The notes under the pieces are model-generated. The model did not search any database. It saw only the letters and a program-made list of their open reading frames with translations, and was not told the DNA's origin. DNA of 27,033 nt from a virus: the IMG/VR virus record IMGVR_UViG_3300017697_003622, positions 1 through 27,033 of that record. One strand, 5' to 3'. The stretch's first letter is position 1. Each line of letters starts with the position of its first letter. This document shows, piece by piece, positions 9,758 through 26,103 of this stretch. A program made the position numbers and the translations under genes.

Positions 9758-11201
9758 AATTTATCTTTTCTATATTATACGGGTAATTGGCCTCTTTGTA
9801 AAACTTTTTCCTTGCTCCCAGGTGTCTTTTCGCAAACTTGCAACTACTAGTAATATCCCAAATTTGTACATTATCCTTGTCTTCTGCTTTACGAATACCT
9901 CTTCCTATGCTCTGTATGACCCTTACAAAAGACTTACCAGGTTCAATAAGAACAAGATTGAATATCCTAGGAATATTGATACCAACACTAGCCACTCCAT
10001 ATGTGGCAATAATAATTTTATTTGTCGCTGTAGACACTTCATCGTATTGTTCCTTTCTGTCTGTGTTTTTAGTTGATCCAGATACGAAAACTGAATCTTC
10101 TAGTTGCTCTTGTAGTATTTCACCTGCAGATATTCTGTCTACAAGTATTAATGTGTTTCCTGATGAGGATATATCTTTGATGGTGCTAGCCACCCATTTC
10201 ATTCTGACTTTATCCGTAGTTAGCCATTTGAGTTCTTCTGCATATGTTTTGAACTGTGGATGATCCTGTGTCTGCAGAACATTCACATGACAGTTTGCCA
10301 ACACACCCTTGTCTTGCAATTCGCTTGCCTGTATTCTATTTGATACATCACCTATGCTACATTTCAAACCCATGAATTCATAATCCGCTTTTGGTACAGT
10401 ACCGGTTAGTCCCCAACGTATGCCACAATGTGCAAATGGTCCTGTTAGTAATCTTTTCAGTACATCCGCTTTGGCCATGTGCACCTCATCGATTATCACA
10501 GTGTTGATACCTTGTATTGCTTCCAAGAAATCTGTTGTGTGTTCGTCCTTGCTTTTTTTTTCTAACACATTTAGTGATTGCCATGTTGCTATCGTGTTGA
10601 ACCTGCCCAGTTCTTTCCTGTCACCGTAGTACACACCAACATCTAAGTTACAAGCAAGGAAGTCCTCTTCTGTCTGTGTCACAAGACTCTTGTTTGGAAC
10701 AATGGTCAGTGTACGACCATACGGTTCAACAAGTTGGCATAATGCCGCTGTAATGATTGTCTTGCCTGCTCCAGTGGCTATCTCTTGTATGCTTTGTGGA
10801 TGTTCTATGAACTTGTTAATTGTTTCCACTTGATAGTCTCTCAACACTATTGGCTGGCCTGCCGCTGGATGATTTTCTGGCCACATTATGTGTGATAGAT
10901 AATTTTTGTCTACTTGTTTGAATTCAAAGTTGTGTTGCTCTCTTTTATCCTCAACATCTATGTACACACCGCCCTCGTCTAGTATGGGAAGTATTTGGTC
11001 AACTAGGTTTAGATATGTGGTTCCTCCGAGTCCGAAGAAACTTACTTTGCCATCCCATCTACCTAACTTGACTGCTGGCAGATGTCTTGCATATGGTATC
11101 TCGTATTTGAATTTGTTTGATAATCTCTTGCGCCATTCGAGACTTAGGTTCTCAAACTTTACATTTACTTCATCTTTTATTACTAATTTACAACTGCTCA
11201 T
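9738..11201 (-). CDS. uvsW: UvsW-like SF2 helicase
   Basis: The 487-aa protein has the T4 UvsW length and layout. An N-terminal dsDNA-binding region (1-110) precedes the SF2 core: motif I ATGAGKT (142-148), motif II DEVH (238-241), motif III GLTGT (264-268), motif IV ILVDR, and motif VI QSIGRGIR (430-437). UvsW unwinds branched DNA and R-loops, switches T4 from origin- to recombination-dependent replication, and helps replication restart. All core residues are intact. It is preceded by the HARP-like gene with a 2-nt gap, under the sigma70-type promoter at 12612-12585. Confidence 0.94.
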   Translation of the reverse strand: MSSCKLVIKDEVNVKFENLSLEWRKRLSNKFKYEIPYARHLPAVKLGRWDGKVSFFGLGGTTYLNLVDQILPILDEGGVYIDVEDKREQHNFEFKQVDKNYLSHIMWPENHPAAGQPIVLRDYQVETINKFIEHPQSIQEIATGAGKTIITAALCQLVEPYGRTLTIVPNKSLVTQTEEDFLACNLDVGVYYGDRKELGRFNTIATWQSLNVLEKKSKDEHTTDFLEAIQGINTVIIDEVHMAKADVLKRLLTGPFAHCGIRWGLTGTVPKADYEFMGLKCSIGDVSNRIQASELQDKGVLANCHVNVLQTQDHPQFKTYAEELKWLTTDKVRMKWVASTIKDISSSGNTLILVDRISAGEILQEQLEDSVFVSGSTKNTDRKEQYDEVSTATNKIIIATYGVASVGINIPRIFNLVLIEPGKSFVRVIQSIGRGIRKAEDKDNVQIWDITSSCKFAKRHLGARKKFYKEANYPYNIEKINYENPYT

Positions 11202-12614: not shown

Positions 12615-13097
12615 ATGAAAAAAACAAGTAAAAAAACAGTTACAGCCCGGAAACAATTGAAGATCAGATTGGAAAATACTCTGACTAAAAGAAAAAATAT
12701 CCGAGGATTTAGGCCCTCACAATCTTTGATGGCGTCTTGGTTCAAGCATCTCAACCAAGGATTGTTTGAAAACAAGTTGCCTACTGTGCCGTTACATCTT
12801 ATAAGGATGACAGACGACTGGGGCAGATGCTGGGCACACTGGGATAACAGGAAATGCAGGAAAGGAACATACGACCAAAGTATTATTCCTTATGACAAAA
12901 CAGAAGTGACCTTTGCCATAGAATTACACACAAGGTATCCAACGTTCAAAGATTTTATTGATACCTTAGCACACGAGATGGTACATCTATACCAGATGAC
13001 CGTATTAAAAGATCCTTACAGCAACCATAACAAAAACTTTTATTCGTTCAGAAATAAGTTTAAAAGTGCCGGCTTGGATCTATCAAGAACTGGCTAA
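12615..13097 (+). CDS. SprT-like zinc metalloprotease
   Basis: The 160-aa protein has the gluzincin motif HEMVH (about 124-128, in LAHEMVHLYQ) in a helix, preceded by a SprT-like N-terminal region (SWFKHLNQGLFENKLP) and followed by a His/Asn stretch (NHNKNFYSFRNKF) that could give the third ligand. The domain is shared with SprT and Spartan, which in eukaryotes cleaves DNA-protein crosslinks; the phage role is unknown. The N-terminus is very basic (KKTSKKTVTARKQ), compatible with DNA binding. It is a single-gene plus-strand unit between two minus-strand operons, sharing a 64-nt divergent promoter region on its left and overlapping the convergent gene by 15 nt on its right. Confidence 0.85.
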   Translation: MKKTSKKTVTARKQLKIRLENTLTKRKNIRGFRPSQSLMASWFKHLNQGLFENKLPTVPLHLIRMTDDWGRCWAHWDNRKCRKGTYDQSIIPYDKTEVTFAIELHTRYPTFKDFIDTLAHEMVHLYQMTVLKDPYSNHNKNFYSFRNKFKSAGLDLSRTG

Positions 13098-13832
13098 CAC
13101 AGTATCTTCAAATTCTTTGTAAGTTATGATTTTAGAATTCCCATGATCAGTGCCTGTCTGCAGGTAGTTCATATACTCCGGAGGATCGTCATGTACTACG
13201 GTGTAGTTCACATAAGGCCTCATTTTCAGCATGTCTCGGAAATGTTTTAACCACCCCTCGAATATCTTGTCATCATTACGTTCACCATAGTTTTCCGTGC
13301 CTTGGTATATGTTATTCAGTTCTCCCTTGCCGTATTCTCTAAAGTCATAACCTATCAGGTATATGTTTTTGTGTCCGTGTACACCTGCTGTCCAGAACGC
13401 CGCGTTGCCTGATATCCAGTGTGGGTTATTGGGTATTAAGTTTATCATGCCCTTGCTCTGTTTCCTGTTCACTTCCAGCGCCGGCCCATAGTGTACGGTC
13501 TTCAACCCAACTGTGTCCTCCACCATCTTCATTGTCATCTTGGTATCTACGGAGAATATGAAGTCGGGCATAAAGTCTCTGTACAATGCATTACAACCAT
13601 ATGTCTGTCCTGTCGCTTTAAGTTTGTTGAGATTAAAATCTTTACGGGAAGGACCATTACCTATGCAGTAAGCATTACCTCGAGGAACTGCTTTGACCGT
13701 ATCCTCGAAAAATTTCATATCTCGTATGCGTTCGCCTTTCCTGATAGTCATGTTTATGCAAACTTCTTCTCCCTCATAGGGTTTCCATTTGATGGGTTCA
13801 ATTTCCTTCTTGCCGATGTTAATAGTTTGCAT
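13083..13832 (-). CDS. GT42 / DUF115-like putative glycosyltransferase
   Basis: The 249-aa protein has AYCIGNGPSRKDF (54-66), matching the GNGPS nucleotide-binding motif of GT42 sialyltransferases and of the DUF115 domain in flagellin glycosylation (Maf) proteins. CNALYRD and FIFSVD follow. Then come SGNAAFWTAGVHGHKNIYLIGYDF-type elements (about 141-164), equivalent to the GT42 segment that ends in a GxDF motif. This points to a CMP- or NDP-sugar transferase fold, but donor specificity cannot be assigned. It is the last gene of the leftward half of the glycan island, with a 1-nt stop/start overlap with the GT-B gene. A GGAGGAG sequence lies about 11 nt upstream of its ATG. Confidence 0.62.
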   Translation of the reverse strand: MQTINIGKKEIEPIKWKPYEGEEVCINMTIRKGERIRDMKFFEDTVKAVPRGNAYCIGNGPSRKDFNLNKLKATGQTYGCNALYRDFMPDFIFSVDTKMTMKMVEDTVGLKTVHYGPALEVNRKQSKGMINLIPNNPHWISGNAAFWTAGVHGHKNIYLIGYDFREYGKGELNNIYQGTENYGERNDDKIFEGWLKHFRDMLKMRPYVNYTVVHDDPPEYMNYLQTGTDHGNSKIITYKEFEDTVLASS

Positions 13833-14701
13833 TATAGATATTTCTCCTCCAGTCTCTTTTTAATTCTCTTCCATGGCAGTCCCTGCTCTATCTCGTCTTC
13901 AAACCATTCTGTGTATGCCAGTTTGTCTGCCCAGGTCAGTCTATTGGGCATGGCCGGTGTGTTTATATCTGTTAATTTTATGTTACCCACATCGTGGCAT
14001 AGGCTGGATTCAGATACGAACACAGGTATGCCCTTGATCACTGCCTCCATGGCCGGGTTGCTGGAATGATTTATTACTGCCCAGGTCCTCTCAAGTGTTG
14101 CTTTGAAATCTGTGTCATCGTATGTCCTGAAATCTCTTTTGGGCAATCTTACTTTAACATTTTTAAATTTGTCCTCTACAAATGATATCGTGTTACGAGG
14201 ATGTGGCCTTACTAAAATAGGTCTTGTAGTGTATTTTCGTATTTCCGTTATCTGTTCTTCTATCCACTGTGACATCCTTGGAAGTCCTTTCCACTGTTCG
14301 GATGCATCGTGCTGTCCGCAAATCACTATAAGGTCACCGGTGGGATTCCATGGTCGTAGCTCGTGTTTGAACAACGGCCACCGTTTATTGTCAAACCCCT
14401 GATTGGCAAAATCTGCATCTCTATTAATCCCATTGATTCCTATCTTGAAACTGAGGTTCCTACGTAGTCCTCCTACTTCCAGAACAATTACAGGCTTACC
14501 TTGACTCCTATATCTATCCCAGACACTTTTGTAATTCTGCATCCGACCCTTCCAAAGTACACTCCATATTACTGCTACGTCTCCGTTGGTCTCTTTATTA
14601 ATGATTACGTTATCTCCAGTCTTTTGGATTGATTCTATAAATTTTTTAAAGATCGGTTTACTGTTTTGTGGGCCATGCTCTGGCCATGCTTCTATCCTCA
14701 T
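13832..14701 (-). CDS. Capsule-type GT-B glycosyltransferase-like protein, paralog A1
   Basis: The 289-aa protein has the marks of capsule-synthesis (KpsS/KpsC-like) or CDP-glycerol-transferase-like GT-B proteins: VRPHPRN (RPHP 165-168), and NHSSNPAMEAVIKGIPVFV beginning at 211, the nucleotide-sugar-binding Ser/Glu region. The end has LTWADKLAYTEWFEDEIEQG followed by KRIKKRLEEKYL. Motifs, spacing and C-terminal wording match the gene at 18074-19057 closely (RPHP; HNSTASVDSCVRGIPTFV; TQWVHDIGYKLWSTDEIRNG), and more distantly those at 19047 and 21648. It probably transfers a sugar or polyol phosphate in the cytoplasm. It overlaps GT-A by 4 nt upstream. Confidence 0.72.
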   Translation of the reverse strand: MRIEAWPEHGPQNSKPIFKKFIESIQKTGDNVIINKETNGDVAVIWSVLWKGRMQNYKSVWDRYRSQGKPVIVLEVGGLRRNLSFKIGINGINRDADFANQGFDNKRWPLFKHELRPWNPTGDLIVICGQHDASEQWKGLPRMSQWIEEQITEIRKYTTRPILVRPHPRNTISFVEDKFKNVKVRLPKRDFRTYDDTDFKATLERTWAVINHSSNPAMEAVIKGIPVFVSESSLCHDVGNIKLTDINTPAMPNRLTWADKLAYTEWFEDEIEQGLPWKRIKKRLEEKYL

Positions 14702-15579
14702 AATGACGGTGGTACTTTCTTCCAGTAATCTACTGTAGGCTCTTTACGCAAATCATTTCGTGCTGACGTTCCGATTTTCTTACGTTTGCCTTTCATGTGG
14801 TCCATGTAATCACCAAGTTCACTATTAACAAACACATGGTGTCCTTTTACACCTTTCCAGTAACCTATATCGTTTACTTGTATGTTTTTTTCTTTTCTGT
14901 ATATTTTTGACAAATGCCAAAACACATACGAGTCGTGCCATTCCAACAATTTAAACACCTCGTCTGTAACATAAAGTTTTTCCCAGTCATTTACAAAGTT
15001 TTGTATCTCAGGATGTTTCATATTGTATCCAACGAATCCACATTCTGGATATTTGCCACCGTCGTTGAGGTTTGGATTTTCTCGACCTAGGTATGTCAAC
15101 ATTGTGTCTTGTGGTAGTAATTTTTCAAAGAAGTCCATAGGGGCGGGCCTAAACGAAAATGTGTCTCCGTCAATCCACACCACATAGTCATACTCTTTTG
15201 AATTACGCACAGCATTCACAACACAGAATACTTTGTTAGCAAATCTCACAGCGGCCCAGAGGAATGATCCTTTATTTTTGTCGTTGCCACCTTTGATTTG
15301 TAGTTCCGCCGGACGTCTAACGCCACCTTCGATTTCTTCTAACTCTCCGTTTGCAACAGGATCGTTTTTGTGTTTGTTCTTAAATTTGAATAATTCTGGC
15401 TCTGCAGTATTAAGGTCTATCCATTGTATTCTGTCATACTTGCATTCAGGTTTAGGTTCTTCTGCGTACACAACTATATCAACTTCTTTTGGAAATTGTT
15501 CAGCCATGGACTCGATACCTTTTTTGCCGTACTGTTCCCAACAGCCAGGCTTGTATGATGTGATAACTTTAATTTTCAT
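14698..15579 (-). CDS. GT-A glycosyltransferase with DGD metal site
   Basis: The 293-aa protein has an N-terminal nucleotide-binding half and a hydrophobic strand ending in WIDGDTF: DxD at Asp137-Asp139, the metal and nucleotide-sugar site of GT-A enzymes. A following ECGFVGYNMKHP and WHDSYVFWHL are typical of retaining GT8-like or related phage glycosyltransferases, where a conserved Gly-x-x-Gly strand and an Asp line the acceptor site. A Gly/Arg-rich segment (about 85-95) interrupts the domain. Donor unknown. It sits between the sulfotransferase (11-nt overlap) and GT-B paralog A1 (4-nt overlap), so sugar transfer and sulfation are likely coordinated. Confidence 0.78.
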   Translation of the reverse strand: MKIKVITSYKPGCWEQYGKKGIESMAEQFPKEVDIVVYAEEPKPECKYDRIQWIDLNTAEPELFKFKNKHKNDPVANGELEEIEGGVRRPAELQIKGGNDKNKGSFLWAAVRFANKVFCVVNAVRNSKEYDYVVWIDGDTFSFRPAPMDFFEKLLPQDTMLTYLGRENPNLNDGGKYPECGFVGYNMKHPEIQNFVNDWEKLYVTDEVFKLLEWHDSYVFWHLSKIYRKEKNIQVNDIGYWKGVKGHHVFVNSELGDYMDHMKGKRKKIGTSARNDLRKEPTVDYWKKVPPSL

Positions 15580-16351
15580 TTATTCTCTTATTTAAATCTT
15601 GCAGTCCTGGCCAGTTCAATAAAACATCTTGTTGTTCTTTTGGTAAATCAGCGATGTAGTTTGATCCGCCCCTTCTATAAAATTTTAATTCGTCTGGTGC
15701 TTCTTTGTTATTTTTTTCTTTCATTTTTTCCCAAGTAGTTTGTTCTTTTGCATATGCGAATGAATCTTTATCGCAATTTTTGAACACAAATGTTAAAAGT
15801 TTTTCCCAAGCACTATCTTCTTTTTTTAGGTCTTCATACTTGATAAACAACTTTCGACCTTGGTGTTGAGCCATGTGATCCAGTTGTAAGTTCATGAAGT
15901 TTATAATGATATCTAGTCCCCATTGTTTGTTTTTTGCAAAATCTATTATGTCTGTGTGTTGTGGACAAGTAAACTCTTTGTATGGTATGCTTTGCAAATA
16001 AGGCCAATAACTGAACAACACATCAAGCGGATCTCTCACAAGATATACAATGTTTTGTAATTTCATTTCAGGTTCGAAATAAAATTGTTTGCTGTCCTGC
16101 ATATTAAAATATTCGTCCCATGGTATGTGTCCGGTCATGCTCATGAAGTCATGTCTAAATAATATTTTAGGTATGCCAGGCATTCCAGGCCGAGGCCTAT
16201 CCACCCATTTGCTAAACGCAACGTTCCATTGTCTAGCAATATAGTGTGCAAAAAAATGTTTCATCCATGTACGACCGCAACGAGGAAAACTTAATATCAA
16301 GGTAGGACAGTTGTTATATTGGTTACGTAAAACGTTTATTCTATGATGCAT
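15569..16351 (-). CDS. PAPS-dependent sulfotransferase
   Basis: The 260-aa protein has the 5'-phosphosulfate loop SFPRCGRTWMK (21-31; consensus YPKSGTTW). A likely catalytic His67 lies in FRHDFM. The 3'-phosphate motif has Arg106 and Ser114 (VRDPLDVLFSYW) at the canonical spacing, and YRRGGSNY is near the C-terminus, like the RKG motif that contacts PAPS. The family moves sulfate from PAPS to hydroxyl or amino groups of sugars and small molecules. Within a glycosyltransferase island, a sulfated glycan product is likely. No PAPS-synthesising gene is visible, so PAPS would come from the host or genes outside the window. The start overlaps AsnB-like by 11 nt. Confidence 0.88.
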   Translation of the reverse strand: MHHRINVLRNQYNNCPTLILSFPRCGRTWMKHFFAHYIARQWNVAFSKWVDRPRPGMPGIPKILFRHDFMSMTGHIPWDEYFNMQDSKQFYFEPEMKLQNIVYLVRDPLDVLFSYWPYLQSIPYKEFTCPQHTDIIDFAKNKQWGLDIIINFMNLQLDHMAQHQGRKLFIKYEDLKKEDSAWEKLLTFVFKNCDKDSFAYAKEQTTWEKMKEKNNKEAPDELKFYRRGGSNYIADLPKEQQDVLLNWPGLQDLNKRINEN

Positions 16352-18074
16352 CTGTTACCTTGTATGTTTCTTTCCAATGTTTCAATATCAAATCTGGTAT
16401 AAGCATTTTAGCAGATTTTTGGCTAGAAGTCACTGTTTTCAATTTTTCGTGTCCTAACTCTTTGGTATAAAAGTCCTCAAGGTCTTTGTCCATTTTATTT
16501 GTAAGCCATAAGCCTACAGGAACAGTCCAGCCTGTTTTTGGTTTATGAATGATGTCATTTGGTAATATTTCGTTGTATGCTGATCTTATCATAATTTTAG
16601 TTTCTGATTGATTCAGTTTGTATTTTGTATGAATATTCAAACAGTATTGCATAAACGTTTTACTTGCCAATGGAAAACGTCCTTCCATGCTGTATGCCAT
16701 TCCATATGTATCGTTTCTGCTAAAAAATTCTGCAGGACATTGTGTGACACAGTCTAAAGCCATATATGAGCCAACAGGATCATCTGGATTCCACAACTTG
16801 TCTGAATAGCAACGCTCTAGTTCGTCTAGTAGTTGTTCGTCTGCAACAATATCTTTTGCAAAACTCTTAGGTCTTTTCAAACGTTGTAACCATAAAGTGA
16901 GTAACTCTCTCCAAGTTTTAGGAAGTACACCATAAAACATTTTTTGATATTTTGGGTATCCGCCTAATAATTCATCACCCATATCGCCTGCCATTGTAAC
17001 AACTATATCTTTGTCTGCCATAAATTTATTTGTATGACAATACATTGCCATACTAGGATTAAAGTTAACTTGTTCCATGTAATAAATGGATTGATCCCAT
17101 GCTGTCATATATTCTCTTGGTGTAATTACTACCTCGTGGTGTGTGTATCCTTCTCTGTCTGCTAAAACTTTTGCCGCATTGGCATCGCTGTTGTAGTCTT
17201 CATCTGCTGTTACTTCTGGGTGTATACGATTTGTAAATGTATTGATGTCTTGAACCTGGCCAAGTTCATATGCTACAACACTCGAGTCTAAACCTCCACT
17301 TAAGAATACACCTATTTTTCTTTGTCCAATAGCACATCGTTTTACAGTGTCGCTTATTTGTTTTCTAAATTCTTTTGGCTTAAATTTATTATTACTGTTA
17401 GGGATTATATAGATTCTTTTACTATCAATAAATTTTTTATCTTTCAAACAGTATACTAATGTTTCTCCAGGCAGTAGTTGTTTAATACCTGAGAATATAG
17501 AATTGCGTAATGGATTGCATCCTGTTCTACTTTGAAAACTTGCCGCTAGTTTGTCTAACTTTCTTGCACCCGGGACTACATCCAACATGCCTTTAACCTC
17601 AGAACCAAACACAAGACCTCTATCTATCTCAGCATAGTATAACGGTTTTATACCAGCATGATCTCTGCTTATGGTAATCCTGTCCTTGTCGACTTCGTAG
17701 TAGGCAAAGCCATGCATTGAATCTATCTCATCAATAAATGACAGGCCAAATTTGTCTAATCCCCATGCAAGTAGTTCTGTGTCACACCCTGTTGTATCTG
17801 TAAAGTCTTTATACTTTTCTTTTAGTTCGTAATAATTAAATATTTCACCGTTGTACACTAGGTGGTTATACTTGGGAGTTCTCCACGGCTGTCGTGAGTT
17901 TTTTGGTTCTGACATTATACTCAAAAGATTATGTCCTAAGGTAACACCGTTGCCTGACTCTTTGTTTACAATCTCAATTTTTAGGCCTCCATCTGGGCCT
18001 CTGTGTTTACAGAGATGCATGTAATCATTGATAAATTTTTGATCGGCCGCAGTTATACCGTATATGCCACACAT
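16341..18074 (-). CDS. asnB: Asparagine synthetase-like glutamine amidotransferase
   Basis: The 577-aa protein is full length for AsnB. Cys2 is the class II amidotransferase nucleophile. NGEIFN (75-80) and GCDTE (Asp98) are glutaminase-site residues. SGGLDSS (259-265) is the ATP PP-loop of the synthetase domain. One difference stands out: where family members have a HxRLS segment with an Arg holding the glutamine carboxylate, this protein reads HNLLS (48-52), so that Arg appears to be Leu. In glycan clusters AsnB-like enzymes often amidate uronic-acid sugars rather than aspartate. The island context supports that, but plain asparagine synthesis is not excluded. It overlaps GT-B A2 by 1 nt. 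Confidence 0.88.
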   Translation of the reverse strand: MCGIYGITAADQKFINDYMHLCKHRGPDGGLKIEIVNKESGNGVTLGHNLLSIMSEPKNSRQPWRTPKYNHLVYNGEIFNYYELKEKYKDFTDTTGCDTELLAWGLDKFGLSFIDEIDSMHGFAYYEVDKDRITISRDHAGIKPLYYAEIDRGLVFGSEVKGMLDVVPGARKLDKLAASFQSRTGCNPLRNSIFSGIKQLLPGETLVYCLKDKKFIDSKRIYIIPNSNNKFKPKEFRKQISDTVKRCAIGQRKIGVFLSGGLDSSVVAYELGQVQDINTFTNRIHPEVTADEDYNSDANAAKVLADREGYTHHEVVITPREYMTAWDQSIYYMEQVNFNPSMAMYCHTNKFMADKDIVVTMAGDMGDELLGGYPKYQKMFYGVLPKTWRELLTLWLQRLKRPKSFAKDIVADEQLLDELERCYSDKLWNPDDPVGSYMALDCVTQCPAEFFSRNDTYGMAYSMEGRFPLASKTFMQYCLNIHTKYKLNQSETKIMIRSAYNEILPNDIIHKPKTGWTVPVGLWLTNKMDKDLEDFYTKELGHEKLKTVTSSQKSAKMLIPDLILKHWKETYKVTDAS

Positions 18075-19057
18075 TACAATCCCAACCTTTCTTTGAATCT
18101 TTTGAACACTACACCATTACGTATCTCGTCGGTGCTCCACAGTTTATATCCTATGTCATGAACCCATTGTGTCCTGTCTGGACGGTCGGGTGTTTCTATA
18201 CTGTTTAGATTTTTATTTGCTACTGGCCAACAAAGTGCAAGATCTGAGGTAACAAAGGTAGGGATTCCACGAACGCAGGAATCGACACTGGCAGTAGAAT
18301 TGTGAGTAACAAAAGCATGGCAATTACTTAATGCTTCTTGGAAGTTGAATCTATAGTACTTTTTCTCATCTCCCACAAAGTGTGCAGGTCCTTCTAACAG
18401 TTCACAGTCCTCTGGAAACTCTTCTTTTCTGTTTATCATTTGTGCCATATGGTTTGGGTGTGGACGTATTAAAAATTTACGATCAGTGATAGGTCTTAAT
18501 TTTTCATACACACCATGAAACCAATCGATCGGATCAAGTTCGTCCATGCTCCAGTTGTCTTTAGGCTGTAATCCAAACAGTATAGGATCGTTTTGATCCG
18601 ACTTACGCCATGGCTCATACTTTATGTTCCATAAGTCTTTCATCATATCCCAACGATCATTTGGACTGTTGTCGCTTAAAAAGTTTCCGTTGTTCATGGG
18701 AGAATATAAACTTACTCGCCAATGATGTTTAGGGTGTGTGATTGTATTGCCAAAACTAGACAGTATGCCACCGTCGAATGTAATAATGTAAATGCCTTTT
18801 TTCTTTGCACGTTCCACAAGGTCTCGCCTACGTCCTTTAGTATGGTGTGGTTGGTTCTTCCCTCCGTAGCCAAACATACATCCTATCGGTGCGGTTGGTT
18901 CCATCTCGTCCTGTCGCCATTCACCAGTTAATTTCTCATTGACCATTATTGGTTCATCGCCACATGCTTTTATGCCTTCGGCCATGTGTTGTAGTAGTTG
19001 AAAACTTGCTCCTTGTTTCCGGTCTTTCACAGTCCTTCTAAATATTTCAACTTTCAT
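18074..19057 (-). CDS. Capsule-type GT-B glycosyltransferase-like protein, paralog A2
   Basis: The 327-aa protein has RPHP (198-201) and THNSTASVDSCVRGIPTF beginning at 251, then a C-terminal block of WVHDIGYKLWSTDEIRNG and FKRFKERLGL. This block matches paralog A1 (13832-14701) position by position. The N-terminal third includes Gly-rich FGYGGKNQP and FDGGILSSFG loops, as expected for a GT-B first domain. The family includes KpsS/KpsC-like capsule enzymes. It is sandwiched between AsnB-like (1-nt overlap) and paralog B1 (11-nt overlap). Expected role: sugar transfer during assembly of the island's glycan. Substrate is not readable. Confidence 0.72.
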   Translation of the reverse strand: MKVEIFRRTVKDRKQGASFQLLQHMAEGIKACGDEPIMVNEKLTGEWRQDEMEPTAPIGCMFGYGGKNQPHHTKGRRRDLVERAKKKGIYIITFDGGILSSFGNTITHPKHHWRVSLYSPMNNGNFLSDNSPNDRWDMMKDLWNIKYEPWRKSDQNDPILFGLQPKDNWSMDELDPIDWFHGVYEKLRPITDRKFLIRPHPNHMAQMINRKEEFPEDCELLEGPAHFVGDEKKYYRFNFQEALSNCHAFVTHNSTASVDSCVRGIPTFVTSDLALCWPVANKNLNSIETPDRPDRTQWVHDIGYKLWSTDEIRNGVVFKRFKERLGL

Positions 19058-19862
19058 CTAATATCCTTAATGCTGTACCATCACTCATTTCATTTGATGT
19101 AAATTGACCATATGCTAAACTATAAAACAACGGTCTAGGGTCTTCGTATACAGGTTGTTCAATACGAGCTAGACTCTTACCTGCAATAGGGAACGCACAA
19201 TTATTACTATCAGCAAATACAGGTACACCACTTGCTAATGCTTTAATTGTAATAGAACTGTTGTTGGTTACAACAGCGTGTAGGTCATTCCAGTCGATTT
19301 TTTCTTTTGGTGTCTTGTTACTGTTTTCTCCTGTGTGGATTTTTCCATCCGCACCTATTTGTGCTTCTGGGTTATAGGGTTTCTCTCTTACAACTATTTC
19401 TCTATCAGTATATTTCCTTAATTCAGTTAGTGTGTTTTCTAGCCAGTTCTCACACTTAAAGAAAGTACTAATAGAATTTGTTGGTGGACAAACTAATATT
19501 TTCCTACCGTTCTTGTGATAAGGCTTTATGTCATACGGAAACGTTGCTTTGAATCTATCATCCGGACGTTCGTCAATAAAGTTTTTGACATGGTCATTTT
19601 TAACTATCCTTAAGAAATAAGGTTGTTGCCTGCTGATGCCCCAATACGGTCTATCCATGTAGTAAAAATCTATATTATTTTTTTGGCAATATTCATACAC
19701 TAAATTTGTTCCTCTTAATATTCCAAAGAGCCAGATTTTTGTTGCATCTGTTTTTGCTAATACCTGTTCGTAAGGTAGTATCTGTGATCCCGGAAGTCCT
19801 TCATGTGCAAACTGTATGTACTTTTCAGTCACTTGTCTAGAAGTTTTACTTAGGTATATCAT
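19047..19862 (-). CDS. GT-B glycosyltransferase-like protein, paralog B1
   Basis: This shorter protein (271 aa) is related to A1 and A2 but of another subfamily. It has FYYMDRPYWG (66-75) in the N-terminal half, VREKPYN (158-164) where A-type members carry RPHP, and TNNSSITIKALASGVPVFA beginning at 199. It ends in FYSLAYGQFTSNEMSDGTA, the same layout as the gene at 21648-22460 (WFTDTPYFG; RHKPRG; TSCSIAAVEAICEGIPVFC; LYSLAYQQFTPEEIENGTA). Loss of RPHP in both may mean a different acceptor or donor. Divergent members of the same GT-B fold are the simplest reading. It is coupled to GT61 by a 1-nt overlap. Confidence 0.7.
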   Translation of the reverse strand: MIYLSKTSRQVTEKYIQFAHEGLPGSQILPYEQVLAKTDATKIWLFGILRGTNLVYEYCQKNNIDFYYMDRPYWGISRQQPYFLRIVKNDHVKNFIDERPDDRFKATFPYDIKPYHKNGRKILVCPPTNSISTFFKCENWLENTLTELRKYTDREIVVREKPYNPEAQIGADGKIHTGENSNKTPKEKIDWNDLHAVVTNNSSITIKALASGVPVFADSNNCAFPIAGKSLARIEQPVYEDPRPLFYSLAYGQFTSNEMSDGTALRILDES

Positions 19863-20944
19863 TAGTCTATGTGTTTCATCAAGTCTGCAATATCAATTTT
19901 AAAATTAATAAGATCTGTCAGTCTCTTTATGCCTTTTGGTTTTTTATCTTTTTCTAGAGGAATAGGTACAGTATCTGTGAGATATAATTTATGTTCCAGA
20001 CCTAAGTGATGAGATAACACAGGATAAACTTTCTTATGTATCATTTTAGGATCTTGTATTTCTATCACTTTTGTTCCCGGGGTGCACCATAATAAATTTA
20101 CTAGGCCTGCACCGTGTGCCGCAACAATGTGTGTGGCCTCAGCAAACGTTTTCATTTGTTCTCGTATGGTCATCTTTGCTAGGTCTACAGTCTCCCATCC
20201 TTTCAATGCTAACAATAATTCGTCTGAGTTTGTGATCCTTCTCGTTTTCGCGCCTGGACGTAGCACAACTATTTTTCTATGAGGCTTCACGTCTTTCAAC
20301 TCCGGACGACCTTTGAAATGTCTTAACCATGGAGCAAGGTGCGGAGTAATCACTCCGTCTTTTGAATTACTTGCACTTGGAACTAATAGATGTTTAAATT
20401 GCCATGTTTCGTTTTTTGGCATCACAAGAACTTTAACTTCGGGAAAGAGTTCTTTGATACATTTTTCTAAATATTTACTCTCATTGGCCAACACATAACA
20501 ATACTTTGTAAAGTCTGTAGACCATCTCTTTTCTATTAATCTAAATTTTGATATTACATCAATCCATATATGCCATGGATTGCCTACACTGTCCTCATCT
20601 ATAGGTAACCATACATAGTGATATTTCTCATGGAAGTGATTGCTGACCCGTGGTAGATCAACATCTACATTGTCACCCCAATCACTCCACAGACCGTGTG
20701 CCTTCTGAGGTTTAAATTTACTTTTATGAGTTAGTCCCCAGATGTAACTGGTAATTAGTTTGTTGTGCATGGTCGCAAGTAGTGGACAACTATGAACTCT
20801 ACAATCATGAAATTCAGCAACAAATGTTGGTAAACTTGTGAAATGTGCATCAACATCTTTGTGATACGGTACTGTGTAATCGTAACTGGTGTCCACAGTT
20901 TCCCATTTATCCAGGAAGTATTTGATTGAATCTATGTTCTTCAT
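19862..20944 (-). CDS. GT61 (DUF563)-type glycosyltransferase
   Basis: The 360-aa protein carries the GT61 hallmark in its C-terminal half: VLRPGAKTRRITNSDELL (227-244), then THIVAAHGAGLVNLLWCTPG (271-290) with the conserved AHGAGL(V/T)N, and KVIEI. In other organisms GT61 members transfer xylose or other sugars in N-glycan and polysaccharide synthesis, and bacterial members occur in capsule clusters. The N-terminal half is Trp/His-rich and unassigned. It is the first gene of the leftward half of the island, starting 39 nt from the divergent SGNH gene. A weak minus-strand promoter (TTGGTA-16-TATAGT) precedes it. Confidence 0.85.
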   Translation of the reverse strand: MKNIDSIKYFLDKWETVDTSYDYTVPYHKDVDAHFTSLPTFVAEFHDCRVHSCPLLATMHNKLITSYIWGLTHKSKFKPQKAHGLWSDWGDNVDVDLPRVSNHFHEKYHYVWLPIDEDSVGNPWHIWIDVISKFRLIEKRWSTDFTKYCYVLANESKYLEKCIKELFPEVKVLVMPKNETWQFKHLLVPSASNSKDGVITPHLAPWLRHFKGRPELKDVKPHRKIVVLRPGAKTRRITNSDELLLALKGWETVDLAKMTIREQMKTFAEATHIVAAHGAGLVNLLWCTPGTKVIEIQDPKMIHKKVYPVLSHHLGLEHKLYLTDTVPIPLEKDKKPKGIKRLTDLINFKIDIADLMKHID

Positions 20945-20945
20945 G

Positions 20946-20974
20946 TTGCTATTTGCCTATAATTATACTATAAT
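20946..20974 (+). promoter_or_regulatory. Candidate divergent promoter region driving both halves of the glycan island
   Basis: In the 39-nt gap 20945-20983, the plus strand reads TTGCTA, 17 nt, TATAAT (20969-20974), aimed at the SGNH gene ATG at 20984 with almost no leader. The minus strand has a weaker TTGGTA-16-TATAGT and a TATAAT at 20967-20962 toward the GT61 gene. The opposing promoters overlap, so the two arms may compete or be co-regulated. Confidence 0.5.
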
Positions 20975-20983
20975 TATTGAGCT

Positions 20984-21673
20984 ATGCCTACCAAACTATT
21001 CATTAATGGATGTTCGTTCCTAACATACAGACCTAAAGACAATGTGAACACCCACTGTGGTCTCGAATTGGCGAAACTTTTAGACTATGCCGTTGAAGTA
21101 AATTTAGCCAATGGCGGAAGAGGGTCGAAAAGATTGATGTGGACCACTAGAGTTTGGTGTGAGAAATTTCCAGACCTTGCGGAAAAATGTTTTTTCCTTA
21201 TTGGATCTAGTGGCGGAAATAGGTTCGACTACCCAACATCTGATGGGTACAAGGCACACAAATTTCCTACAATGAAGACAACTTGGAAAACATGGGATCC
21301 AAACAGAGACAAACACACAACTAGTTTTGTAAAATATCTTTTCAGTCTAGGGGCAGACCTAGACCAAATGACACAAGTTGAATCTATATTAGGCCTATTA
21401 GATCTACAAGACTATTTTGAAAATAAAAAATTTCCTTATGTGTTTTACAATACACTGTCAGATAACAAAATAGAAAATCCAGATATACAATTACTATTTG
21501 ATAAAATTAAAAAAGAAAGATTTTTCAAACCAGAAACTAGTCATTTGGATTACACAGTTGCAAACAATCAGCAGTGCAAACCAAATGATCCACATCCTAA
21601 CGAAGAAGGTCATAAGCAATGGGCTAAACAATTACACGAATTTATAAATGTTAACAATTTACTCACCAACTAA
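20984..21673 (+). CDS. SGNH-hydrolase-like protein
   Basis: The 229-aa protein has SGNH block I as FINGCSF with nucleophile Ser11, a block II Gly loop GGRGSK (44-49), a Gly/Asn block III-like LIGSSGGN, and block V DPHPNEEGH with Asp202 and His204. The family contains esterases and O-acetyl transferases or deacetylases acting on glycans. Beside glycosyltransferases, trimming or adding acyl groups on a sugar is a plausible role. The order of catalytic blocks is complete, so activity is likely; substrate unknown. No signal peptide is visible, so it acts in the cytoplasm. It is the first gene of the rightward half of the island and overlaps the next by 26 nt. Confidence 0.75.
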   Translation: MPTKLFINGCSFLTYRPKDNVNTHCGLELAKLLDYAVEVNLANGGRGSKRLMWTTRVWCEKFPDLAEKCFFLIGSSGGNRFDYPTSDGYKAHKFPTMKTTWKTWDPNRDKHTTSFVKYLFSLGADLDQMTQVESILGLLDLQDYFENKKFPYVFYNTLSDNKIENPDIQLLFDKIKKERFFKPETSHLDYTVANNQQCKPNDPHPNEEGHKQWAKQLHEFINVNNLLTN

Positions 21674-22460
21674 TAATCCAAATAGCAAGGCCTGGGAAGT
21701 TTTCAATGGGGTTGACAAGTCCTGGCCTGATCAGATTACAAAGTTAAACAACGCAGTAGAAACAGATCCAGTCCCCAATTCAATGTTCTGGGGATTCGTT
21801 GGCAACAACAGGGAAATGGTCAAGAAACTAGAAGCACGTAATCACAACTACTGGTTCACTGACACTCCATATTTTGGCAGGTTTGACAACACAAATCTAA
21901 AACCAGATAATCACTACTGGCGAATATGTAAGAATGCTATACACGTGCCGTACATCAAAGGATGCAAGTCAGATAGATTTGAAAAGTTTGGAATGAACAT
22001 AAAGGCACCAAACTTCGCCGGCAAATATGTTTTAGTGTGTCCTAGCAGTGCAGGAATACACAGTTACTTGGACAGACCTAATTGGACAAACGAGACTGTA
22101 GAACAGATCAAGAGATACACAGACAGACCAATCAGACTTCGACACAAGCCTAGGGGCAGGGGTACGTCAGGACCGAGTGAGGCAAAGGTACCCCTATCCG
22201 AGGACCTCAAGGAGGCTTGGTGTGTTGTCACCAGTTGTTCTATCGCGGCAGTGGAGGCAATATGTGAAGGTATACCTGTGTTTTGTGATGACAAAAGTTT
22301 TGCAGTTGACGTGGGGAATGTTGAACTGTCAGACATTGAAAATCCCTACTACGGTGGCCCGGAGCCTTGGTTATATAGTTTGGCCTATCAACAGTTCACA
22401 CCAGAAGAGATTGAAAACGGTACAGCAGTAGAGATATTGATGGACAAAGGAATACTATGA
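21648..22460 (+). CDS. GT-B glycosyltransferase-like protein, paralog B2
   Basis: The 270-aa protein is the closest relative of the gene at 19047-19862. It has YWFTDTPYFG (68-77), LRHKPRG (164-170), TSCSIAAVEA (195-204) followed by GIPVFC, and the ending LYSLAYQQFTPEEIENGTA. In A1 and A2 the middle motif is RPHP; here it is HKP, as in B1. Two B-type copies therefore lie on opposite sides of the divergent promoter. The start at 21648 overlaps the SGNH 3' end. An upstream TTATAA makes the ATG resemble a late-promoter box, but this is AT-rich coincidence. It is coupled to the methyltransferase by an ATGA overlap. Confidence 0.72.
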   Translation: MLTIYSPTNNPNSKAWEVFNGVDKSWPDQITKLNNAVETDPVPNSMFWGFVGNNREMVKKLEARNHNYWFTDTPYFGRFDNTNLKPDNHYWRICKNAIHVPYIKGCKSDRFEKFGMNIKAPNFAGKYVLVCPSSAGIHSYLDRPNWTNETVEQIKRYTDRPIRLRHKPRGRGTSGPSEAKVPLSEDLKEAWCVVTSCSIAAVEAICEGIPVFCDDKSFAVDVGNVELSDIENPYYGGPEPWLYSLAYQQFTPEEIENGTAVEILMDKGIL

Positions 22461-23083
22461 ATATAGAAAAGGTAAACAATTTTTGGGTTCCTAGCAACGA
22501 CATACACATAGAAGAATGGAAGTCTGGCAAACCTTTTACTCAAAATAAATGTTTGAACAAATTTTTAAAGTACTGTCAAATACAGAGTAAAAAAATGAAA
22601 ACTGTAATAGATGTAGGTGCATGGTGCGGTACATGGGCAAAAGCAATCGAGCCTTATGCTAGGAAAGTGATTGCATTTGAGCCTGACCAAACACATTTTA
22701 CATGTTTACAACGTAATTGTACTATTAATTGTGATCCGAGAATGGAAGCAGTTGGATCAGAAATAAAAAATATTTCGTTGACCGATGATGACTTCACCCA
22801 GGCAAAAAGGATAGACAAACAAGGTAGCATAAGGATGACTACTTTGGACCATATGAATTATCTAGATGTAGACATGATAAAGATTGATGTAGAAGGATAT
22901 GAAATGGAAGTACTTAAAGGTGCAACAAAAACCTTAGAGGGCATTGATTATCTAATGATAGAATTAAACAACAATACAAAAAAATACGGTAGTAGTAATG
23001 TTGAAATTGAAAAATACATAAGTTCGTTAGGATTCAAGGTGCTCATGGAACACTGGCCGGACAAAGTTTTCTACCGTGCATAA
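22457..23083 (+). CDS. FkbM-family methyltransferase
   Basis: The 208-aa protein has the SAM-binding motif I VIDVGAWCGTW (50-60) and a second strand-end FEPDQTH (acidic residue for the SAM ribose). The FkbM hallmark IKIDVEGYEMEVLKG lies near 141-155, followed by DYLMIELN. FkbM enzymes O-methylate hydroxyls in antibiotics, glycolipids and polysaccharides. In the island it would cap or decorate a sugar by O-methylation. It starts with an ATGA overlap after GT-B B2 and is followed 19 nt later by the epimerase gene. No odd residues noted. Confidence 0.87.
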   Translation: MNIEKVNNFWVPSNDIHIEEWKSGKPFTQNKCLNKFLKYCQIQSKKMKTVIDVGAWCGTWAKAIEPYARKVIAFEPDQTHFTCLQRNCTINCDPRMEAVGSEIKNISLTDDDFTQAKRIDKQGSIRMTTLDHMNYLDVDMIKIDVEGYEMEVLKGATKTLEGIDYLMIELNNNTKKYGSSNVEIEKYISSLGFKVLMEHWPDKVFYRA

Positions 23084-23102
23084 CTGAAATTAAATACTCT
23101 GA

Positions 23103-24107
23103 ATGAAAATTTTTATAACAGGCGTCGCAGGTTTTTTAGGTTCACACCTAGCAGACTTAATGATCGCCCAAGGCCATAAAGTTGCTGGCAATGACAACAT
23201 GATCGGCGGGTATGCAGATAATGTGCCACAAGGTGTAGAGTTTCATCAGGTAGATTGTTGTGATTTAGAAAACTTAACCAAAGCAATGGAAGGCTGTGAC
23301 ATTGTGTATCACACCGCCGCCACTGCTTACGAAGGACTGTCTGTTTTTTCTCCTGTGCTTGTCACAAGGAATATATTTGAAGCGTCAGTTACAACTATTA
23401 CAGCGGCAATAAGAAACAACGTAAAACGTATAGTGTACTGTTCAAGCATGGCAAGATATGGCCATCATGATAAAATGCCATACAGAGAAGATTACGAATG
23501 CCGTCCTCAAGATCCATATGGTATTGCTAAAAAAGCCGGTGAGGATGTTCTAAAAAATTTATGTGAAACACACGGAGTTGAGTATGTGATTGCTGTTCCA
23601 CACAACATAGTTGGCCCAAGACAGAAGTATGACGATCCATTTAGGAACGTTATGTCCATTATGCTTAACAGAATGTTACAAGGAAAACAACCTATCATAT
23701 ACGGCGACGGCGAGCAACAGAGATGTTTTAGTTACATTGATGACTGTTTGTATTGTCTAAACGCTCTTGCTTTTCAAGAAGACGTAGTTGGGGAAGTTGT
23801 CAACATTGGCCCTGATGAGGAATCTTGCACAATCAATGATTTAGCCGAAATGTGTGCCAACGAAACAGGACTAAATTTAGATGTGTTATATCATAAGGAT
23901 AGACCACAAGAAGTCAAGATCGCAGTTTGTTCATCAGACAAAGCAAGAAAGTTATTAGGTTATAAAACGTCTACAAATGTAAGACAATCGGTGCAAAAAA
24001 CTGCCGAGTATATCAGGACTAGAGGAACAAAGAAGTTTCAATACCATTTGCCTTTAGAAATTGTAAACGATAAAACACCAGACACCTGGAAGAATAAATT
24101 GATATGA
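23103..24107 (+). CDS. NAD-dependent epimerase/dehydratase (extended SDR)
   Basis: The 334-aa protein has the Rossmann motif GVAGFLGS (7-14), catalytic SSMARYG (114-120) and YGIAK (Tyr139, Lys143), and FSYIDD and VVNIGPDE further on, as in UDP-glucose 4-epimerase and related NDP-sugar enzymes. A C-terminal extension of about 25 residues follows the last conserved block. It interconverts or modifies an NDP-sugar; the exact substrate (4-epimerase, dehydratase or decarboxylase) is not readable. With the nucleotidyltransferase at 2537-3274 it could supply a modified donor. Its stop overlaps the GT-A copy 2 start by 4 nt. Confidence 0.9.
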   Translation: MKIFITGVAGFLGSHLADLMIAQGHKVAGNDNMIGGYADNVPQGVEFHQVDCCDLENLTKAMEGCDIVYHTAATAYEGLSVFSPVLVTRNIFEASVTTITAAIRNNVKRIVYCSSMARYGHHDKMPYREDYECRPQDPYGIAKKAGEDVLKNLCETHGVEYVIAVPHNIVGPRQKYDDPFRNVMSIMLNRMLQGKQPIIYGDGEQQRCFSYIDDCLYCLNALAFQEDVVGEVVNIGPDEESCTINDLAEMCANETGLNLDVLYHKDRPQEVKIAVCSSDKARKLLGYKTSTNVRQSVQKTAEYIRTRGTKKFQYHLPLEIVNDKTPDTWKNKLI

Positions 24108-24817
24108 TATCGTTTTGTTGCCCATCTAGGGGCAGGCCAAAACTTGCTAAAAGACTTGTAGATACCGCTATCAGTACACAAAAAGGAGACACAGAATTTT
24201 TGTTTTACCTCAACGAAGATGATGAGAAATTAGAAGAATACAAAGACTTGTTAGACGAAAAACATTATACAGTTGGGCCAAATCAATCAACTTGTTACAG
24301 TTGGAATTTAATGTGCGATAAAGCATCACATGACGTAGTAATGCTAATGGGTGATGATGTGCAAGTAAAAACAAAGGACTGGGATCAACTGATTACAGAC
24401 GAAATTAACAGGTACGATGACAAGATATTAATGGTTGTACCTTCTGATGGCAAACCAAAAAACAAACATTTAGGCAATGAACCTATGCTGTGGCCAGATG
24501 AAAAATTACCTGCGGCACATTTTGCTGTTCATAAAAATTGGACAAACACATTAGGTTACCTTGCTCCGGTTTTCTTTTGGCACTGGCATGTTGATTCTTA
24601 CACACAAAAAGTTGCACGGAAACTAAACAGGTGCATGTACATACCCACAGTAGAATTCAAAACGAAAAAAATACTAGACGATGATGCTGGCAAACAGATA
24701 CGAAAAAATTTAAATATCGCTCAAAGAGATGAATTTGTTTGGACAAAGGTAAGATCTAGACATATGCTCGGAGATGTTACAGCATTAAAAAACTTTATTG
24801 AATCACGAACTGAATAA
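24104..24817 (+). CDS. GT-A fold glycosyltransferase-like protein (GT2-like), copy 2
   Basis: The 237-aa protein is a paralog of the gene at 625-1326: PSRGRP (7-12), YLNEDDE (35-41), VGPNQSTCYSW, MGDD with acidic Asp84-Asp85, KDWDQ, and FFWHWHVDSY (157-166). The GDD here is a better match to the DxD metal site than the GDE of copy 1. GT2-like sugar transfer is the likely activity. It is the last gene of the rightward half, overlapping the epimerase start region by 4 nt and the convergent GT8-like gene by 15 nt at the 3' ends. Confidence 0.75.
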   Translation: MISFCCPSRGRPKLAKRLVDTAISTQKGDTEFLFYLNEDDEKLEEYKDLLDEKHYTVGPNQSTCYSWNLMCDKASHDVVMLMGDDVQVKTKDWDQLITDEINRYDDKILMVVPSDGKPKNKHLGNEPMLWPDEKLPAAHFAVHKNWTNTLGYLAPVFFWHWHVDSYTQKVARKLNRCMYIPTVEFKTKKILDDDAGKQIRKNLNIAQRDEFVWTKVRSRHMLGDVTALKNFIESRTE

Positions 24818-25477
24818 ATTTATAAGTTCTTTTTTCCAGTCATCGCTATACTCACAATCTCGGTAACCATCAAACCATGGGCCACCTTCTGTGTAGTGTA
24901 ATATTTTTGGTGTGCCGTTTCTTGGTTCTTTGTACCAACCTACTAACCAATTATATTCTAAAGGTAATGATCCTATTTCGTTATCATCTAGCCAACTGAA
25001 CCTGTGCAGGAACTTTGGTGATTCTTCATTGAGAAGTTCTGGTGTTAATATTTTGTTTTTTGGATGTTCACAGTTCCACAAAACCATGCTTGACCAGTTC
25101 TTCCTGGGATATGATGTTTGCACCTGTCCATCCATTTTTGTTGTCTCTTTTGGAGTGTAGTCGTGTTGTACTACAACAACTGCTTTCGAGTTATCACAAT
25201 ATTTCACGAGCTCGTGGCTTGGTATCTTCCAAAGGAAATCACAGTCACAGAACACTGCCCACCCTTTGAAATCATTCATGTAAGGCACGAAGAATCTAGT
25301 GAACGTGAATTCAGTTGATGCCAACTTGTCCACTGGCCTAGTGTAAAGTCCTTGATCTCGCATCTGTTTTTGCTTTAGGGGAATAACTTCTGCTGATGCA
25401 TCTCTACGCTTGATACTATGCTCACACACTTGGTATGCTATATCTTCTCTGCTGTCATGCCCTACGTAAATTTTCAT
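24803..25477 (-). CDS. GT8-like glycosyltransferase (start at 25477)
   Basis: An in-frame ATG 36 nt upstream exists, but the ATG at 25477 gives the 4-nt ATGA overlap with the HAD gene seen elsewhere here. It also starts the protein at the expected beta-strand (MKIYVGHDSRE). The 224-aa product has AVFCDCD with Asp78-x-Asp80 as the metal site, TEFTFTRFFVP upstream as in GT8 LPS galactosyl/glucosyltransferases, then SSMVLWNCEHP and LHYTEGGPWFDGY (the GT8 H-x-x-G-x-KPW-like end). Likely role: sugar transfer to a lipid- or protein-linked acceptor. It closes the island on the right. Confidence 0.8.
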   Translation of the reverse strand: MKIYVGHDSREDIAYQVCEHSIKRRDASAEVIPLKQKQMRDQGLYTRPVDKLASTEFTFTRFFVPYMNDFKGWAVFCDCDFLWKIPSHELVKYCDNSKAVVVVQHDYTPKETTKMDGQVQTSYPRKNWSSMVLWNCEHPKNKILTPELLNEESPKFLHRFSWLDDNEIGSLPLEYNWLVGWYKEPRNGTPKILHYTEGGPWFDGYRDCEYSDDWKKELINLFSS

Positions 25478-26103
25478 TTTCTTCCTGAGACTATTTGGTG
25501 TATGTCTTTCCAATTACTTACACGGATAATGTCAGGATGATTAAAGTCTTGATTATATGGTTGGCTCATTAATATAGGCTTTAAACCGTATTTGAGCCCG
25601 GCTACAGCGTTGGCAGGCTTGTCCTCGACCCAATACAGTCCGGTATTGTGGAACTCCGCTAATGCACTGTCTTTGTCTGCTCCTGTGCCCAGTATATGGT
25701 AATTTGTGAACACATGATCACCAAACAGTTCGCCCAATCTTCGTTTACGTAATTCCTGTGCCGGTATGTCTGATGTTTGAGATGTTATTGGTATGAATGT
25801 CCAACCCTCTGCCGCTAACAGTTTTACCCATGTCTGTGATTCCAACATTGGACGCTGTGTGCCCATCCATGCACTCCTATTAAACTCTCTTATACATATT
25901 CTTATTTCGTTTTTTGTTAATCCAAATCTTTCTTCCATCCAATATGTGTTTTGTTTGTCTGGTAGTAGTCTATAAGGGTGATATCTTGCACCTCTCTCAT
26001 CAAACAGTGTTTTTTGTAACATCCATTTTGTGAAATGGTATTCCCATTCCAACAGCACACCGTCTACATCTGTGAGTATTATTCTATTATTTGATATCGG
26101 CAT
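25474..26103 (-). CDS. HAD-superfamily phosphatase-like protein, copy 2
   Basis: The 209-aa protein has TDVDGVLLEW with Asp12 and Asp14, motif II PITSQ, a Lys-containing KDSALAEF, and motif IV YWVEDKPANA. The end SNWKDIHQI and the SQPYNQDF segment match the HAD protein at 1993-2556, so they are paralogs. Here too the HAD gene is directly followed by a glycosyltransferase gene. Substrate is unknown; a sugar phosphate or nucleotide phosphate is likely. The start overlaps the UvsY-like gene by 17 nt. It contains a longer cap (residues about 25-75) than copy 1. Confidence 0.8.
   Translation of the reverse strand: MPISNNRIILTDVDGVLLEWEYHFTKWMLQKTLFDERGARYHPYRLLPDKQNTYWMEERFGLTKNEIRICIREFNRSAWMGTQRPMLESQTWVKLLAAEGWTFIPITSQTSDIPAQELRKRRLGELFGDHVFTNYHILGTGADKDSALAEFHNTGLYWVEDKPANAVAGLKYGLKPILMSQPYNQDFNHPDIIRVSNWKDIHQIVSGRK

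Follow-up and report, generated by a model that had tools for sequence, protein, structure and literature searches.

The viral record IMGVR_UViG_3300017697_003622 from IMG/VR was analysed over its positions 1 to 27,033 (27,033 bases, hereafter the window), with a focus on four glycosyltransferase-like genes, designated A1, A2, B1 and B2, which lie in a glycan cluster extending from ~13083 to 25513 (Table 1). In the initial annotation, made from the DNA letters and their open reading frames (ORFs), these genes were described as paralogous capsule-type glycosyltransferases (GT) of the GT-B class in two subfamilies. All four ORFs are intact at the positions first assigned to them, and their paralogy was borne out by local alignment, where all six pairs scored 17–45 standard deviations above shuffled controls (six other window genes, used as control, gave Z ≤ 4.1), and by blastp (E 1e-8 to 5e-34). 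Identity among the four is 20–31%. The division into an A and a B class corresponds to a supported branch of the tree (98/97), and it is practically certain that the four are homologous, form two classes and diverged anciently. The motifs reported for each type were recovered, namely RPHP in both A proteins, EKP in B1 (residues 160–162) and HKP in B2 (166–168), and in the N-terminal part of the B proteins DRPYWG in B1 (70–75) and DTPYFG in B2 (72–77); among B1 orthologs the N-terminal motif reads DRPYWG in 61% and DHGYF in 39%. The block xxS...G(I/V)P(V/T)F and the ending [WF]xx[DNE]E[IM]...G are common to the four as described, but B2 has S-C-S and E-E there.

Structural models were predicted with AlphaFold2 for A1 (predicted local distance difference test, pLDDT, 94.4) and B2 (pLDDT 92.3) and compared with the PDB using Foldseek. 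The top 24 matches of A1 were all retaining beta-Kdo (3-deoxy-D-manno-oct-2-ulosonic acid) transferases (best E 7e-9), as were 20 of the 21 matches of B2 with E ≤ 0.001 (best E 5e-8), and the matches of both were led by KpsC, with WbbB and KrkA. The capsule-type GT-B description holds at the level of the fold, since both models match beta-Kdo transferases before all else; the GT-B fold of KpsC/WbbB type is seen in the A1 and B2 models and extends to A2 and B1 by homology. Sequence and profile searches of the PDB returned no relative of the four, none of the four proteins passed any family cut-off in Pfam, PHROGs or NCBIfam, and Capsule_synth (PF05159) had no match in the window at E ≤ 10 and none for the four proteins. 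A match to the putative glycosyltransferase DUF6716 (PF20471), covering ~35 residues at the serine (S) motif, was seen in 36 of 102 members, but remained under the curated cut-off in the members shown. Kinship with the CDP-glycerol glycerophosphotransferase TagF was rejected, its fold match ranking only 38th (E 2.7e-3).

The sequence bridge to KpsC is formed by podovirus-type phage homologs of the MW202713 type (MW202713, L272–L274), which carry GQVPxDAS and R[PT]HP; KpsC-like proteins of alphaproteobacteria have GQVEDDAS or QTRGDAS together with KxHP (KPHP in KpsC). Profile comparison related the four window families to the MW202713 type with E 4e-27 to 2e-41, and hhalign related the latter to KpsC modules with P 3e-6 to 7e-5, where ten unrelated island families used as controls gave P of at least 0.04. 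The family member at L265:4716-5537 (MW202713) is an intact ORF left unannotated in the podovirus record. It is highly probable that the four proteins constitute a phage branch of the retaining beta-Kdo transferase superfamily, which contains KpsC (GT107), WbbB (GT99) and KrkA (GT140) and probably also KpsS1 (GT118).

Enzymes of this superfamily require the Asp of QxxxD as nucleophile, the His of (K/R)xHP and a Glu base (PMC10148158, PMC9587256, PMC12887879). Conservation was computed over 107–127 orthologs per family. QxxxD with the nucleophile Asp is absent from all four families, and B1 and B2 lack both Q and D. The A1 site (QHxxS) contains no conserved Asp whether the loop is gapped or ungapped, D132 being D in 70% and H in 16%. 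The (K/R)xHP motif is complete in A1 and A2 (100%), while its His is an invariant Lys in B1 and B2; in the resulting RxKP, Arg and Pro are both conserved to 100% in B2 and to 79% (rest Lys) and 75% (rest Gly), respectively, in B1. The S-motif Ser, which contacts the phosphate of cytidine monophosphate (CMP) in beta-Kdo transferases, is present in 100% of all four families (A1 S214, A2 S254, B1 S202, B2 S198), and an E/D acid close to where the third N-terminal strand ends is invariant as well.

QxxxD is kept in the MW202713 type and in the relatives L275_p2 and L275_p4, so the nucleophile was replaced in the four window families and not across the whole family. That it is replaced in all four can be stated with very high confidence. 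Since the nucleophile is gone, the four enzymes probably do without the covalent double displacement of KpsC, and a covalent Asp-Kdo adduct with retention is predicted from the residue pattern to be absent. The simplest alternative, put forward tentatively, would be a single displacement of the inverting, sialyltransferase-like kind; the base, the HP motif (A1/A2) and the S motif, as retained, resemble inverting sialyltransferases.

Table 1. Positions of the four paralogs, their motifs and other genes in the window.
Feature	Position	Strand	Remarks
A1, GT-B, beta-Kdo-transferase-like, A class	13832..14701	-	fixed, vertically inherited member
A1 E75 (LEVGG)	14477..14479	-	candidate general base; 100% conserved
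A1 Q130-S134 (QHDAS), site of QxxxD	14300..14314	-	Q130 and S134 100% in 107 orthologs
A1 RPHP (165-168), (K/R)xHP CMP-binding motif	14198..14209	-	R, H and P168 100% conserved
A2, GT-B, A class	18074..19057	-	in exchangeable cassette
A2 QPKDNWS (164-170)	18548..18568	-	ungapped against KpsC QVEDDAS; Asn168 in nucleophile place, 100% of 111
A2 RPHP (198-201)	18455..18466	-	(K/R)xHP motif
B1, GT-B, B class	19047..19862	-	in exchangeable cassette; most variable of the four; 11-base overlap with A2
B1 PPTN (126-129), at QxxxD site	19476..19487	-	P126 and P127 100% conserved; family pattern PP[ST]x
B1 REKP (159-162)	19377..19388	-	invariant K161 substitutes HP histidine
B2, GT-B, B class	21648..22460	+	fixed member
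B2 CPSSAG (131-136), at QxxxD site	22038..22055	+	family pattern CPSSxG
B2 RHKP (165-168)	22140..22151	+	invariant K167 substitutes HP histidine
GT42/MptE-like protein	13083..13832	-	GNGPS motif; adjoins A1
GTA, conserved glycosyltransferase-like protein	14698..15579	-	first gene of exchangeable cassette; putative GT-A
Sulfotransferase (PF00685)	15569..16351	-	variable cassette gene
Asparagine-synthase-like amidotransferase (AsnB)	16341..18074	-	variable cassette gene
GT61 glycosyltransferase (PF04577)	19862..20944	-	
SGNH-hydrolase-like/DUF6071 protein	20984..21673	+	sequence variable; putative SGNH, from motifs
FkbM methyltransferase	22457..23083	+	
NAD-dependent sugar epimerase/dehydratase	23103..24107	+	
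GT2-like glycosyltransferase	24104..24817	+	
GT8-like protein	24803..25513	-	homologs beside A/B genes in Mosig, Caulobacter phages and G161 prophage
DnaB-like helicase	3274..4749		phage replication gene
Primase	4742..5755		phage replication gene
UvsW-like helicase	9738..11201		phage replication gene

Scans of IMG/VR gave 259 loci, and an iterated hidden Markov model search over these and the window yielded 888 member ORFs, divided among four orthologous groups with additional allelic classes for B1. The order A1-, A2-, B1-, B2+ (signs denote strand) is complete in 176 loci representing 104 distinct marine phage clusters, in which close orthologs of each paralog (40–95% identity) hold the same position; in the remaining loci members are missing only from one or other end, as expected where contigs and loci stop short. 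Exactly four copies were present on contigs of 196, 122, 87, 66 and 61 kb, and a fifth, distant copy was found on the 91-kb and 46-kb contigs. In the tree B2 groups with Mosig_2 (98/94), B1 with Mosig_1 (98/96) and A1 with a copy from the L275 cluster (100/100). Approximately unbiased (AU) tests rejected a single clade of all four (p 1e-43) and an A1+A2 clade (p 2e-4), and weakly rejected a B1+B2 clade (p 0.025). The tree agrees only by half with the relationship initially proposed, because the four belong to one superfamily, yet each paralog is less close to the other member of its class than to distant phage homologs. The repeated duplication within the island suggested in the initial annotation is not supported as a recent event; duplications did take place, but earlier than the origin of this phage clade. 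Caulobacter jumbo phages and the G161 prophage have a single A gene and a single B gene in tandem, which suggests the ancestral state; the original unit seems to have combined one gene of each class with GT42-like and GT8-like neighbours.

Further family members were noted in other settings. A related cluster beside UvsW (L275:4947-10335) holds five members, with three tandem A-type copies, two of them keeping QxxxD. The small bacterial genome G174 has a single B-type gene (L322:6339-7100), probably part of a mobile element, with genes for a tyrosine recombinase and an FkbM methyltransferase nearby. An alignment scan of genome contigs returned solely a phage contig binned in a 'Rickettsiales' metagenome-assembled genome; this 60-kb contig (L267, NZHE01000029.1) is phage DNA of this clade and identical to IMG/VR record L268. 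Moraphages (PMC12619734) were set aside as the same lineage, their predicted hosts being mostly Bacteroidota and the available part of that text holding no tie to this clade.

Protein distances among GTA, A2 and B1 are closely correlated (Mantel rho 0.78–0.87), whereas the same three against UvsW gave rho 0.04–0.08; the distances of B2 (rho 0.72), the GT42-like gene (0.59) and A1 (0.46) track UvsW. Between the window and L010, identity is 98% for UvsW (part present), 88% for A1 and 93% for B2, as against 49% for GTA, 69% for A2 and 42% for B1. GTA was found in all 175 of 175 full-cluster loci and covaries with A2 and B1. Across the 104 clusters, DRPYWG-type B1 was accompanied by AsnB in 46, by a sulfotransferase in 16 and by both in three, and DHGYF-type B1 never co-occurred with the sulfotransferase. 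With high confidence, GTA-[sulfotransferase/AsnB]-A2-B1 is exchanged as a block independently of A1, B2 and the core gene UvsW, its boundaries lying between A1 and GTA on one side and B1 and GT61 on the other. The pattern is that of serotype switching. Outside this cassette, the SGNH-like and FkbM genes are strongly variable, independently of both blocks.

In known enzymes the Arg and Pro of RxHP contact cytosine, and both residues are fully retained in A1, A2 and B2 and present in most B1 sequences. A gene for the CMP-Kdo synthetase KdsB, rare in the clade, follows directly after B1 with an overlap of ~26–29 bases at L267:9561-10268 (L267/L268) and at L270:8001-8708, two independent occurrences with 68% identity. 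A contig of L030 (L308:607-1896) encodes a CMP-sugar cytidylyltransferase (PF02348, CTP_transf_3) fused to an RraA-like aldolase (PF03737), a protein that could make and activate an ulosonic acid; the fusion gene lies next to DnaB, at the place taken in the window by a nucleotidyltransferase (2537-3274). These features point to a CMP-ulosonic acid as the probable donor, and Kdo itself would be a good guess for the ulosonic acid.

The genes of the cluster sit in a phage and lack the setting of a bacterial capsule locus. The UvsW proteins nearest to that of the window are those of the jumbo phages Phosso, PA5oct and Atu_ph07 (52–54% identity). The window holds a second paralogous pair, the GT2-like proteins at 625-1326 and 24104-24817 (30% identity, E 1e-38). 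Positions 2-520 of this phage contig encode the C-terminal part of a putative outer-membrane beta-barrel (porin-like) protein. A 196-residue protein at 7121-7711, weakly similar to part of DNA polymerase III alpha (PF17657, E 0.06), is a mini-DnaE fragment conserved across the phage clade.

Gene order in relatives was examined for the destination of the glycan. In the G161 prophage (L321:4713-13728) the order is tail terminator, GT42-like, A, B, methyltransferase, GT9-like, GT8-like, major tail protein and tape measure. The Caulobacter phages CcrSC and CcrColossus carry the module after a tail protein and before lysis genes, and in CcrColossus a gene annotated as sialyltransferase-like occupies the position of the GT42-like gene beside A and B. 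In the MW202713 podovirus the family gene lies just upstream of a pyridoxal phosphate-dependent aminotransferase and the terminase. The placement of the module among tail genes in relatives favours a virion glycan, and by this analogy the virion is, by a narrow preference, the suggested target.

Other explanations were weighed against the same observations. That the four arose by recent duplication inside this island might be read from the adjacency of A2 and B1, and the tandem A-type copies of the L275 cluster show that such duplication occurs in the family, but the low identity among the four compared with close orthologs elsewhere, the fixed gene order in 104 clusters and the AU rejection of one clade leave this origin scarcely credible, the trees refuting its recent form. 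A further reading is that either the B-class proteins or the whole set of four have no catalytic activity left and serve as scaffold or bind the acceptor; it is favoured by the absence of Q, D and the HP histidine from B1/B2 and of the nucleophile from A1/A2. However, the substituted positions (A1 S134, A2 N168 and the Lys of B1/B2) are almost invariant, and the same holds for the E/D acid and the Ser of the S motif; near-invariance indicates positions that are constrained and not decayed, and we regard dead subunits as improbable.

A serious rival, although in our judgement unlikely, is that the cluster remodels the lipopolysaccharide (LPS) or capsule of the host and blocks competing phages through serotype conversion or superinfection exclusion. 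This is how glycosyltransferases of pelagimyophage hypervariable islands are interpreted in PMC7029224, KpsC-like enzymes work on bacterial capsule and LPS glycans, and serotype-like cassette exchange suits a surface polysaccharide. The position of the module in or next to the tail operon of the G161 prophage and the Caulobacter phages speaks for the virion instead, and no polysaccharide export or polymerase gene was noticed in the window, where no search was aimed at these. Many phage glycosyltransferases act on DNA, and in the window the cluster adjoins DNA-replication genes, as might be expected if these enzymes hypermodified phage DNA against restriction in the manner of T4 and of metagenomic phages cited in PMC12619734. 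Nevertheless, a thymidylate synthase/hydroxymethylase homolog (PF00303) was found in 0 of 12 records, one of them 196 kb long, with controls detected, and the sulfotransferase, GT61, FkbM and GT8 partners suit a protein or surface glycan. DNA glycosylation is therefore unlikely as the role, and was given very little weight.

From the evidence for fold, residues, gene order and exchange, we infer the donor, acceptor, stereochemistry and biological role as follows, with an estimated probability of about 60% for the overall reading of a phage beta-Kdo-transferase branch that uses a CMP-ulosonic donor and builds a virion glycan with an exchangeable cassette. The four GT-B enzymes, keeping most CMP-binding contacts (R and P of RxHP/RxKP, S-motif Ser), would pass a CMP-activated ulosonic acid, Kdo or a relative, to a growing glycan. 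The ancestral phage module may have comprised one A and one B enzyme beside GT42-like and GT8-like enzymes, from which old duplications would have led to the obligate set A1+A2+B1+B2. Within this set, A1 and B2 would make the constant portion of the glycan, and the cassette GTA-[sulfotransferase/AsnB]-A2-B1, swapped between phages, would set a variable, serotype-like part. The likeliest acceptor would be a virion protein, probably of the tail, and the reaction may proceed by single displacement with the conserved E/D-x-G acid acting as base. Specialisation of the paralogs for successive sugars, raised in the initial annotation, is plausible given the fixed set and the paralog-specific catalytic residues. 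In its most specific form, namely that the four-enzyme set abandoned the covalent Kdo-Asp mechanism, possibly with a return to inversion, and builds a virion glycan from CMP-ulosonic acids that is cassette-switched like capsule or O-antigen serotypes, the proposal is a speculative one.

Several observations weigh against this reading. TM-scores to KpsC are modest (0.4–0.56; 0.44–0.56 by query), which is attributed to differing domain packing within the same fold class. Direct profile matches of the four families to KpsC are weak (P 0.004–0.25), so the link runs via the fold and the MW202713 type, and the direct comparison was discarded as stand-alone evidence. Most contigs have no KdsB gene, one of 196 kb among them, and KdsA was found in 0 of 12 records searched. 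B1 has no conserved acid at the ribose-contact position, which makes its donor the least certain. The window clade has the cluster next to UvsW and not among tail genes, and the functional reading of every family member is inferred.

Compared with known systems, KpsC, whose beta-Kdo transferase modules serve group 2 capsules, is the best fold match in the PDB and has Gln, (K/R)xHP and the S motif in common with A1/A2, and the MW202713-type relatives carry GQVxxDAS and RPHP. Unlike the dual KpsC, the window proteins are single modules of ~270–330 residues that escape the Pfam Capsule_synth model, with the nucleophile Asp replaced in all four and Gln and the HP His also gone from B1/B2. WbbB and KrkA are of the same fold class but keep QxxxD and HP, which the window proteins do not both keep; in KrkA, a structural relative that has diverged deeply, the general base sits elsewhere (PMC12887879), and the window proteins are likewise deeply divergent. 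The inverting CMP-sialic acid transferases (GT38/42/52/80) resemble A1/A2 in having (K/R)xHP and the S motif, and the window proteins in lacking the QxxxD nucleophile, with a putative acidic base in the latter, and a GT42-like gene adjoins A1; however, no sialyltransferase was among the 50 PDB matches listed for A1 or B2. The hypervariable-island glycosyltransferases of pelagimyophages share the marine phage setting, but neither this family nor the Kdo-transferase fold is named in the portion of PMC7029224 available. In Pelagibacter phage Mosig, GT8, a GTA homolog and a sulfotransferase accompany two family genes, one like B1 and the other like B2, whereas an A-class gene was not found in the Mosig stretch examined. 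Among the papers available to a literature search, none on phage Kdo transferases was found.

Retaining beta-Kdo transferases are the known case of retaining glycosyltransferases that work by double displacement, and how their unusual mechanism evolved has been called unclear (PMC10148158). Within the phage family, the nucleophile is present in some close relatives and missing from others, and in A2 Asp is cleanly exchanged for Asn in an otherwise ungapped motif; the family thereby provides a natural series for how the double-displacement mechanism is gained or lost. The exchange of the cassette is evidence of marine phages switching glycan type as bacteria switch serotype. As the minimal A+B module is present in culturable Caulobacter phages, virion glycosylation is directly testable, and through the lost catalytic residue the chemistry of the four enzymes and the probable viral sugar coat become testable.

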